DNA from: Pelagibacteraceae bacterium
GTDB lineage: Bacteria > Pseudomonadota > Alphaproteobacteria > Pelagibacterales > Pelagibacteraceae
Reading direction: 5' to 3'
DNA: 64,000 nucleotides
NCBI GenBank assembly: GCA_022763425.1
Contig: JALEGD010000001.1
Span: 186,001-250,000, forward strand
Part shown: positions 5,909-9,215 of the stretch, piece after piece
How the letters are laid out: each line of letters opens with the position of its first letter
Numbering within the stretch: the stretch's first letter is position 1
The notes under the pieces: model-generated
Databases searched by the model: none
The model's input: only the letters and a program-made list of their open reading frames with translations
Told to the model about the DNA's origin: nothing
Made by a program: the position numbers and the translations under genes

Positions 5909-6050
5909 TTGACTTTATAAACATATCTATGTAGTTTCAGCCCACTTCCAAGAAAAAGGTGGTCTTTTTCTGGTGTCCCTGAATAAGGGAGATCAACACT
6001 AGTCAGCGAGTTTTCGCCCACTAGTGCGATACCTGTTGGAAGTAAAGAAA
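5909..6050 (+). promoter_or_regulatory. Structured 5' leader RNA of ffh (with a possible promoter -35)
   Basis: This G+C-richer stretch folds well by eye. ACTTCCAA (5944-5951) pairs perfectly with TTGGAAGT (6036-6043) to close the element. Inside are GAAAAA (5952-5957) with TTTTTC (5965-5970); TCCCT (5976-5980) with AGGGA (5986-5990) around a 5-base loop; and CACTAGT (5997-6003) with ACTAGTG (6020-6026), capped by GCGA (6006-6009) with TCGC (6014-6017). The closing helix contains GGAAG, the only plausible Shine-Dalgarno, 12 bases from the ffh ATG, which suggests translational control. A TTGACT -35-like hexamer is at 5909-5914, but no good -10 follows. From memory, a cis-regulatory ffh motif was reported for Ca. 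P. ubique by comparative genomics; I believe this is it. Confidence 0.75.
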
Positions 6051-6054
6051 AATT

Positions 6055-7416
6055 ATGTTTGAGAATTTAACAGATAAAATTGAGTCGGCCTTTTCTTTTT
6101 TTAATAAGATAACAAGGCTAGATGAGAAACAAGCTGACGAAGGTCTTAGAAAAATAAGACAAGCTTTATTAGAGTCTGATGTTGCGCTTTCAGTTACTAA
6201 AAAATTTATTGAAGATGTAAAACCAAAAATTATCGGCCAAGAAGTTTTAAAATCTGTAACCCCCGGCCAGATGATCATCAAAATAGTAAATGATGAATTA
6301 ATTAAAGTATTAGGTAGCGAGAAGTCAGAACTAAATTTAGGAAATGTTCCACCAATTAAAATTTTAGTAGTCGGTTTACAAGGTTCAGGAAAAACAACTT
6401 CAACAGCAAAATTAGCTCATTTTTTACAAAAAAAATTATCAAAAAAAGTTCTAATGACAAGTTTGGATATCTATCGTCCAGCAGCTCAACAGCAATTACA
6501 GGTGCTTGGAAATGATAATGATATTAAAACATTGCCTATTATTGAAGGTCAATTACCTCTTGAAATATCAAAGAGAGCTTTGAATGCAGTTTCTTTAAGT
6601 GGTGAGGATGTGGTTATTTTTGATACTGCGGGAAGAACTCAAATTGATCAACAGATGATGATGGAGCTAAAACAGCTTGAAAATGAAATACAGCCGCATG
6701 AAATTATACTTGTTGCAGATTCGTTAACAGGTCAAGACGCTGTAAATATTGCTCAAGAATTTCAAAAAACTGTAAATTTATCATCGATTATTTTGACAAG
6801 AATTGATGGTGACGGAAAAGGTGGTGCTGCTTTAAGTATGAAGGCGGTAACAGGATGTCCAATTAAATTTTTAGCTACTGGTGAGAAAATTGATCAATTA
6901 GAAGCCTTTCATCCTGATCGTATTGTAAATCGAATCCTTGGCATGGGAGATGTTGTATCATTAGTTGAAAAAGTTGCTGAAGATCTAGAGCAAGAAAAAA
7001 TTGAAAAAATTGAAGAAGATATAAAAAAAGGATCTTTTACCTTTGATACATACCTTCAACAAATAAGACAGATGAAGAAAGTAGGAGGTATGAGCGGAGT
7101 ACTTAGTATGATGCCAGGTGTTTCAAAGATGAAAAAACAAATTGATGAATCAAATTTAGATGAAAGCTTACTAAATAAACAAGAAGCAATCATTTTATCA
7201 ATGACACAAAAAGAGAGAGATAATCCAAAAATTATTGGAGGCTCAAGAAAAAAAAGAATTGCAAATGGATCTGGTACAGACATTTCAATGGTAAATAAAC
7301 TTCTCAAACAACACAAGATGATGACAAATGTTATGAAAAAAATGTCAAAAGGTGGAAGAGGAGCTTTACAAGGTTTGGATGGTATTCCACCGGACCTTTT
7401 AAATAACTTAAAATAA
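6055..7416 (+). CDS. ffh: Signal recognition particle protein Ffh
   Basis: SRP54 homologue that binds 4.5S RNA and nascent signal sequences. 453 residues: N domain (1-90), G domain with GLQGSGKT at 107-114, DTAGR at 190-194 and TRIDGDGKGG at 248-257, and a methionine-rich M domain (about 300-453) with several MM and KM clusters and the GSG loop near 400. It is preceded by a multi-helix leader RNA that probably regulates it. It is followed by rpsP, trmD and rplS, the common bacterial order, with an 18-base gap before rpsP that carries an AGGA ribosome-binding site. Confidence 0.98.
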   Translation: MFENLTDKIESAFSFFNKITRLDEKQADEGLRKIRQALLESDVALSVTKKFIEDVKPKIIGQEVLKSVTPGQMIIKIVNDELIKVLGSEKSELNLGNVPPIKILVVGLQGSGKTTSTAKLAHFLQKKLSKKVLMTSLDIYRPAAQQQLQVLGNDNDIKTLPIIEGQLPLEISKRALNAVSLSGEDVVIFDTAGRTQIDQQMMMELKQLENEIQPHEIILVADSLTGQDAVNIAQEFQKTVNLSSIILTRIDGDGKGGAALSMKAVTGCPIKFLATGEKIDQLEAFHPDRIVNRILGMGDVVSLVEKVAEDLEQEKIEKIEEDIKKGSFTFDTYLQQIRQMKKVGGMSGVLSMMPGVSKMKKQIDESNLDESLLNKQEAIILSMTQKERDNPKIIGGSRKKRIANGSGTDISMVNKLLKQHKMMTNVMKKMSKGGRGALQGLDGIPPDLLNNLK

Positions 7417-7434: not shown

Positions 7435-7968
7435 ATGTTAAAAATAAGAATGTCCAGAGGAGGTGCAAAAAAAAGACCAGTTTATAAAATTGTAATTGCA
7501 GACTCTAGAAAACCACGTGATGGAAGATTTATAGAAAAAGTTGGCTTTTTTAATCCTCTATTACCAAAAGATAAAAAAGAAAGATTGAGTTTAGATATTG
7601 AGAGAATTAAATATTGGTTAGAAAAAGGTGCAAAGCCATCTGATCGTATTGCAAGGTTTTTAGGTGAAGCGAATGTAATCCCAAAGCCTGCACAAAAGAA
7701 TAACCCAATTAAAGCTAAACCAAAAAAGAAAGCTCAAGAAAGATTAGCGGCAGCAGAAGAAGCAAAAAAAGCTGCTGAAGAAGCTGCAAAAGCAGAAGCT
7801 GAGAAACCGGCTGAACCAGCTCAACCCGAGAATGAAGTTAAAGCTGAAACAGAGGCTCCTAAAGAAGAAAAAGCTGCTGCTGAAACAAAGCCAGAAGCAG
7901 AGGCACCAAAAGAAGAAAAAGTAGCCGAAGCTCCTAAAGCTGAAAGTAAGGAAGAAGATAAAAAATAA
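7435..7968 (+). CDS. rpsP: 30S ribosomal protein S16 with long acidic/alanine-rich tail
   Basis: The first ~85 residues are a full bS16 ([13 protein letters not shown] start, then the [14 protein letters not shown] block). The remaining ~90 residues are a low-complexity Ala/Glu/Lys/Pro tail with repeated EAPKEEK-like units (about 130-170). C-terminal extensions of S16 are common in Alphaproteobacteria, though this one doubles the protein. The tail is probably disordered and outside the ribosome core; its role is unknown. Second gene in the ffh-rpsP-trmD-rplS cluster. Confidence 0.96.
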
Positions 7969-7975
7969 ACTAGAT

Positions 7976-8671
7976 ATGTTTTCAGCTAATATTTTTACAT
8001 TGTATCCTGAAATTTTTCCTGGAGCTCTTGGTCATGGAATTTACCAAAGAGCTTCAGAAAAAAAAATTTGGGAACTAAATGTTAAAAATATTCGTGATTA
8101 TGCATATGACAAGCATACCACAGTAGATGATAAACCTTTTGGTGGTGGTAACGGCATGGTTTTGAAAGCTGACGTGCTTAATGAATGTTTAGAGAAAAAT
8201 TCAAACGATTATAAAACTTATTATTTATCTCCAAGGGGTAAAGTATTTAATCAAGAACTGGCCAATGAATTTTCAAAATTAAAAGGAATAAACTTATTAT
8301 GTGGTCATTTTGAAGGAGTTGATCAGAGAGTATTGGATCACAGAAATATTGATGAAATTTCTGTTGGTGATTATGTTCTCTCAGGCGGAGAAAGTGCTGC
8401 AGTTGTTGTGCTTGATGCGGTCTTAAGATTATTGCCAGGTGTTCTTGGTAATGAAAATTCAACTAAAGAAGAGAGCTTTAATAATCATTTACTTGAATAT
8501 CCTCAATATACTCAGCCGAGAAAATGGCGAGATTTAGAGGTTCCGGAGGTTCTATTATCTGGGAATCACGGGGAAATAAAAGACTGGCGTTTAAATCAAT
8601 CACGGAGTATAACTCAGCGCCTTAGACCAGATTTATGGACTAAGTACTGCAACAATAGCAAAAAAAATTAA
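7976..8671 (+). CDS. trmD: tRNA (guanine-37-N1)-methyltransferase
   Basis: Methylates G37 of tRNAs with G36 to prevent frameshifting. 231 residues, the family length. The SPOUT trefoil-knot motifs are visible: LSPRGK near 84-89, [10 protein letters not shown] at 109-118, and [11 protein letters not shown] at 129-139. The C-terminal helical domain contains PQYTQPR and LLSGNHGEI, which dock the tRNA. Placed 7 bases after rpsP and 4 bases before rplS, so almost certainly on the same transcript as the ribosomal proteins. Confidence 0.97.
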
Positions 8672-8675
8672 GAAA

Positions 8676-9215
8676 ATGAATAGAATTGAAGAAATTGAAA
8701 AGAAACACTTAGAGCAAATTTCTGCTGGAAAAAAAATTACAGAATTTTTTCCTGGAGATACAATTAAAGTAAACGTTAGAATTGTCGAAGGAAAGAGACA
8801 AAGAGTCCAAGCTTTCGAAGGAGTATGTATTGCTAAAAAAAGTGGGGGTATAAATTCCTCGTTTACAGTAAGAAAAGTTTCTTTTGGAGAAGGAGTAGAG
8901 AGAGTCTTTCAATTGTATAGTCCAAACCTAGATTCAATTGAACTTATAAGATCAGGTAAAGTGAGAAGAGCGAAGCTTTACTATTTAAGAGATAGAAGCG
9001 GTAAATCTGCAAGAATTAATGAAAAAATAAAAAAGAAACTAGGTATAGATGTTGCTAAAGAAATAGAAATTAAAACTGCCGATGAAGAAAAGAAAAAAGA
9101 AGCGATAGAAAGTTCAGCCTCTTCCAAAGATGAACAAATTGACAAAGTTGAAGCTAAGAAAGTAGAAGCGAAGCAAGAGGAAAAAAAAGAAGTTAAGTCA
9201 GAAGAAAAAAAATAA
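8676..9215 (+). CDS. rplS: 50S ribosomal protein L19 with charged tail
   Basis: Residues 1-115 are a standard bL19 ([16 protein letters not shown], then EGVCIAKK and the [16 protein letters not shown] ending). A further ~60 residues of mostly Lys/Glu/Ala form an unusual C-terminal tail. L19 lies at the 30S/50S interface; the extension would be solvent-exposed. Last gene in the ffh-rpsP-trmD-rplS group. leuC begins 10 bases downstream, so read-through into leucine biosynthesis is likely unless a promoter lies inside rplS. Confidence 0.96.

Follow-up and report, generated by a model that had tools for sequence, protein, structure and literature searches.

Organization of the ffh locus

In the 64,000-nucleotide stretch of DNA analysed here (the window), a gap of 171 bases precedes ffh, and rpsP, trmD and rplS follow in this order on the same strand (Table 1). 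Positions 5944-6054 would form the 5′ leader of an ffh-rpsP-trmD-rplS operon, predicted to fold as a junction of four helices, P1 to P4. The S16 protein encoded in the window (177 aa) has a long repetitive tail rich in Ala, Glu, Lys and Pro, and a similar tail is found in S16 of the family f50 discussed below.

Table 1. Features of the leader and of the genes behind it (positions in the window)
Feature	Positions	Strand	Details and evidence
Predicted sigma-70-type promoter	5909-5937	+	-35 TTGACT 5909-5914, 17 nt, -10 TAGTTT 5932-5937
P1, 5′ strand (ACTTCCAA)	5944-5951	+	pairs with 6036-6043; minimum-energy fold
P2 hairpin (AGAAAAAG/CTTTTTCT)	5948-5973	+	helix 5951-5958/5964-5971; minimum-energy fold
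P3 hairpin	5972-5994	+	class-wide covariation; minimum-energy fold
P4 hairpin (Rfam RF01793, ffh motif)	5997-6026	+	cmscan, 51.8 bits; covariation
Conserved tail	6027-6039	+	CGATnnnTGYTGG in SAR11, TTGG in most; column frequencies
P1, 3′ strand (TTGGAAGT)	6036-6043	+	11 nt 5′ of the ffh ATG
ffh	6055-7416	+	PF00448, PF02978, PF02881
rpsP (ribosomal protein S16)	7435-7968	+	PF00886; own Shine-Dalgarno-like AAAGGAA
trmD	7976-8671	+	PF01746
rplS (ribosomal protein L19)	8676-9215	+	PF01245

The RNA is predicted to start at about 5944, the first base of P1. A generic scan for consensus promoters found none in the leader region of the window. Counted over distinct sequences, TTGAC lies within 100 nt upstream of the motif in all 69 SAR11, all 97 other alphaproteobacterial and all 11 f50 sequences, compared with 8-11% of shuffled sequences, and in relatives a TAnnnT-like box with T-A at the -10 position lies 17-18 nt beyond it. 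The comparison thus points to a promoter kept upstream of the leader. A start downstream of 6000, which the original prediction had named as fatal to itself, is unlikely, since the promoter predicts a start near 5944 and TTGAC stands upstream in every sequence tested.

Structure of the leader

All four helices that had been drawn before ffh from the sequence of the window are present where they had been claimed, and the minimum-energy fold of 5938-6070 is the same four-way junction of P1, P2, P3 and P4 (-41.1 kcal/mol; z = -3.6 against 200 dinucleotide shuffles). The centroid fold also has the four-helix form. Comparison with relatives, which the original prediction had called for, finds covariation in P4 and P3 and, more weakly, in P1; fold, covariation and upstream promoter together support its claim of a structured cis-acting leader.

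P4 consists of the helix 5997-6003/6020-6026 and an inner stem, 6006-6009/6014-6017, and is interrupted by the mismatch C6004 x C6019. In an alignment of 48 diverse sequences, 10 of its 11 pairs are changed on both sides and 100% of the cells hold standard pairs, while slid controls fail this test. Conservation of the C x C mismatch is to be read from this alignment, as the column-frequency scan of relatives required both C residues. Next to the mismatch, A6005 and C6018 of the window are replaced in many relatives by C-G, G-U, U-A or G-C, so that on comparative grounds this position behaves as a pair.

P3 is composed of GGU/AUC (5972-5974/5992-5994), a G.G mismatch (5975/5991) and TCCCT/AGGGA (5976-5980/5986-5990). 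When 158 sequences were compared at one fixed geometry, 57.8% of the cells were paired, against 46.3% (sd 1.5, maximum 50.4) in 500 shuffles, and the corresponding helices in relatives include CGGTCCTCTGA/TCAGAGGATCG, GGCCC/GGGCC, CACTC/GAGTG, TGCTC/GAGCA and TCGCC/GGTGA, among others. Judged by these compensating changes across Alphaproteobacteria, P3 is a true hairpin; the Rfam model, in its part that covers 5982-5996 of the window, leaves P3 out and treats it as unpaired. P3 and P4 form the conserved core of the leader. That the hairpin of the Rfam family belongs, as a single arm, to a larger structure is new in this analysis. The base of P2 can be extended by CC/GG, and a hairpin of differing sequence recurs at its place in SAR11 and many other alphaproteobacteria.

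P1 has a narrower range. It is more stable when its two strands come from the same genus than when they are mixed between genera (-7.04 vs -5.81 kcal/mol, a value reached in 2 of 300 permutations), which supports P1 mainly in the genus of the window, where it is strong, and in a few others. No sign of it was seen in the genera g7 and g10, it is absent from the f50 folds, and outside SAR11 it is not established; in the sequences compared, P1 is conserved only within some SAR11 genera. The proposal that P1 masks the Shine-Dalgarno site of ffh fits the window, where the 3′ strand of P1 contains GGAAG (6038-6042), 12 nt upstream of the ATG at 6055, but the site is not kept in many relatives. Masking would hold at most for the close kin of the window; as a general output it was rejected because GGA is missing in several SAR11 sequences.

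The TTGG of the tail (6036-6039 in the window) stands about 10 bases after P4 and is kept in most relatives, whether near a start codon or not. One of the f50 folds has it paired to the 5′ side of P3.

Identity and distribution of the motif

The covariance-model search identified 5982-6034 as the ffh motif, RF01793 (cmscan, 51.8 bits, E 6.2e-07; gathering score 35), in agreement with the family mentioned in the original prediction. The element itself is therefore already known. The first description is of one bulged hairpin upstream of ffh, with no known function (Meyer et al. 2009, PMC2704228). Like the published family, the element in the window scores above the cut-off, is a bulged, covarying hairpin with two conserved C residues, and precedes ffh. 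It differs in that the published motif is this single hairpin, whereas the leader in the window adds P3, P2 and, locally, P1. A scan of the leader against all Rfam families, with E up to 10, returned only RF01793 and one chance match to a snoRNA. The small SRP RNA, RF00169, shares with the leader a hairpin with mismatches and the ffh context, but the leader had no match to its model at E up to 10, and the SRP RNA of this genome lies elsewhere (G000:C1:252418-252515).

The published range of the motif comprises SAR11, Rhodobacterales, Sphingomonadales and Rhizobiales, with reported absence from Rhodospirillales and Caulobacterales (PMC2704228). In our searches RF01793 was found in at least 169 of 197 SAR11-family genomes and at least 106 of 385 genomes of the class, counts in which absences are unreliable, the wide searches having scored only 13-14 candidates per genome. 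From 48 sequences a new model, R1, was constructed; it gave 74 matches in 80 named alphaproteobacterial rpsP loci and, in a phylum sample of 398, matches in 109 genomes of the class and one outsider. Of 20 low or unusual R1 matches that were checked, 18 precede ffh and rpsP; the outsider, G950, and a second site in G878 do not, and were rejected as false. Weak true matches extend further into the class than the published range, with Robiginitomaculum and Kordiimonas as examples among the named records. A search of plasmids for the motif gave chance matches only. By these counts the family is essentially alphaproteobacterial and broader than the Rfam cut-off suggests.

True members fall below the gathering cut-off of RF01793: of the matches scoring 30-35 bits that were checked, almost all stand upstream of ffh and rpsP.

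Linkage to rpsP

The first gene after the motif is ffh, within 400 nt, in 256 surveyed loci; in two further loci ffh begins 490 and 670 nt away, in 17 loci the first gene is rpsP, and three loci are cut by contig ends. Where at least 4.2 kb of downstream sequence was available (168 loci), rpsP lies downstream of the motif in 166, trmD was seen in 145 and rplS in 137. One of the remaining two loci, in G446, has rpsP at 5.1 kb, and in the other, in the metagenome-assembled genome G424, the motif is present and no rpsP was found in the assembly. None of the 168 loci showed the motif with ffh and rpsP demonstrably elsewhere. Conversely, five genomes in which ffh and rpsP are unlinked (G216, G220, G408, G497 and G215) have the motif at neither gene. 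The comparison thus ties the motif closely to rpsP, and its lack where the two genes are apart agrees with a function for the joint operon, without choosing among the operon members.

Many SAR11 contigs, for example G001:C1, G027:C5, G039:C10 and G153:C7, break off in rpsP or shortly after it, some 1.6-1.8 kb from the motif. The repetitive tail of S16 may break assemblies there.

Lineages without a detectable SRP

In contrast to the published family, the motif also stands before rpsP in lineages that seem to lack SRP. It is carried by 14 of the 18 genomes of the order of f50, and in all 14 it lies directly before rpsP. These genomes and three named records, L240 (QCGV01000002.1), L241 (CACBCD010000007.1) and L242 (CACOFZ010000019.1), make up the 17 rpsP-first loci as one group. 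The named records, in each of which the motif is likewise directly before rpsP, were deposited as OCS116 cluster or PS1 clade, and the leader of L240 is identical in sequence to that of G587, so that the named and f50 sets overlap. Six members of the order reach 90% completeness or more with little contamination, and five of these have the motif; two motif-negative members that were checked also have no rpsP in their assemblies.

No protein with an SRP54 domain above the cut-off was found in the 18 genomes (one match, in G579, reached 20.5 bits), while the same search was positive in 14 of 14 control genomes and in two SAR11 genomes. None of the 18 had a match to SRP RNA, and the Ffh of the window used as a query retrieved nothing in the four genomes searched with it. 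The absence rests on profile searches in draft genomes, though all 18 genomes and all three components agree in it. In these f50 sequences the stem of P4 is 100% paired, and in nine cells both partners of a pair are changed, so that P4 is under selection without SRP.

The genomes of this order (G245, G369, G464, G540 and G577-G590) measure 0.9-1.4 Mb, several are 93-97% complete, and Ffh, FtsY and SRP RNA are not detectable in them. It would be remarkable if the entire SRP pathway had been lost; the comparison brings to light bacteria that seemingly live without SRP.

G264 (f69, 0.9 Mb, listed as 100% complete) is a second reduced lineage without SRP proteins and with the same layout, a weaker case than f50. 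Its motif match is weak (21.9 bits, E 2.5e-4, one pair broken) and lies 46 nt before rpsP, with rimM next and TTGACT and a CATAAT box upstream; no Ffh M domain was found in this genome, and no SRP54 domain above the cut-off (19 bits at most). On comparative grounds the leader is independent of SRP.

G264 and G213 (f18, 0.6 Mb, 88% complete) are without Ffh or FtsY domains above the cut-off. G305 (f110, 1.9 Mb) has two SRP54-type GTPases, one of them FtsY-sized, and no Ffh M domain (PF02978) was found; this could reflect either an assembly gap or a divergent Ffh.

Proposed regulation of the operon

In ribosomal-protein leaders, excess protein binds the leader of its own mRNA. With this precedent and the linkage to rpsP, a product of the rpsP operon is the natural candidate for a regulator. 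We propose that the leader may mediate autogenous control of the (ffh-)rpsP-trmD-rplS operon, its P3/P4 core being the probable binding site of an operon-encoded protein, most likely S16, a reading to which we assign a probability of about 0.5. We favour S16 because no other gene lies downstream as constantly as rpsP, which moves into first place once ffh is gone, and because an S16 leader has been proposed in Flavobacteria (Eckert and Weinberg 2020, PMC7247131). Set beside our leader by description, that proposal is alike in placing a structured leader before the rpsP operon and unlike it in concerning another phylum; in our loci ffh usually precedes rpsP. The present element is a structured, covarying RNA in the 5′ untranslated region of an operon that contains the gene of its putative ligand and, with conservation taken as a stand-in for function, it is kept before rpsP where ffh is not found.

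We infer S16 as the ligand and repression as the outcome. When there is more free S16 than 16S rRNA to take it up, the protein would attach to P3/P4 and hold the leader closed, which would lower expression of the operon. In the genus of the window P1 brings its 3′ side right up to the start of ffh, a position that suggests that translation initiation is blocked; elsewhere the signal must be passed on differently, or through the stability of the RNA or its premature termination. Since rpsP has a ribosome-binding site of its own behind ffh, S16 could be repressed only through polarity, decay of the mRNA or an early end of transcription. Several points count against this reading. Blocking the translation of ffh alone would not obviously repress S16, P1 is conserved in some SAR11 genera only, the linkage does not separate S16 from its usual operon mates RimM, TrmD or L19, and the five genomes with unlinked ffh and rpsP lack the motif at both genes.

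If S16 is the ligand, a single leader would let alphaproteobacteria couple synthesis of the SRP protein to ribosome assembly, and control would be found for an operon that ranks among the few for ribosomal proteins with none known; for the trmD operon of E. coli no regulation is known (PMC10931766). A family of RNAs that has stood without a function since 2009 gets a testable ligand and loses its favourite. The name ‘ffh motif’ may be a misnomer for what could be a nearly class-wide alphaproteobacterial leader of the S16 operon, multi-helix and S16-binding, that survived in at least two SRP-losing lineages.

The rpsP operon would still be the target if another of its products, above all L19 (or TrmD or RimM), or a translation-state signal acting via the leader, were sensed instead. 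We regard this as rather unlikely. L19 is the main alternative ligand to S16 because L19 leaders are known elsewhere, namely in Firmicutes and Flavobacteria (PMC7247131), and rplS and trmD usually lie within the same operon. They are less constantly within reach than rpsP (137 and 145 vs 166 of the 168 loci), though they may lie further off in the operon, and the Firmicutes L19_leader model was among the Rfam families that gave no match to our leader at E up to 10.

It is improbable that the element is a separate trans-acting small RNA with an incidental place before ffh, as its Rfam type ‘sRNA’ suggests. The motif has been reported among marine small-RNA transcripts (PMC2704228), and a candidate of about 120 nt, sm5, was listed, without a Northern blot, between dapF and ffh of S. 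meliloti (PMC2573895). Its place before ffh or rpsP is kept, however, in all surveyed loci with enough DNA, and no terminator-like site follows the element in the window. Part of the class has U runs behind P4, which are rare in SAR11: T-runs stand after P4 in many GC-rich genomes, and a run of at least four was seen in 50 of 110 sequences, compared with about 6% in controls. P4 as an intrinsic terminator was rejected, as most SAR11 sequences, that of the window included, are without T-runs and no terminator was called.

Autoregulation by Ffh or sensing of SRP RNA, the idea favoured in the original prediction, has become very improbable and is rejected as a general function. In its favour, Ffh binds RNA and its gene comes first in the 256 loci mentioned above. 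In the order of f50, however, where searches for Ffh, FtsY and SRP RNA found none, the leader is kept before rpsP and its stem shows compensating changes, and the motif stands before rpsP in G264, where neither SRP protein was found. Moreover, Meyer et al. (2009, PMC2704228) had already noted that the ffh motif does not resemble the site on 4.5S RNA that Ffh binds.

The two-state switch that had also been suggested, in which GTGT (5973-5976) would pair with ACAC (5996-5999) and break P4, can be drawn in the window but is extremely improbable: both calculated folds have the four-helix form, covariation was not found for both states, and in 32 distinct SAR11 sequences 5976 follows its P3 partner 5990 (TA 23, CG 8, TG 1), while 5996 stays A, so that 5976/5996 would be a C.A mismatch in 8 of the 32.
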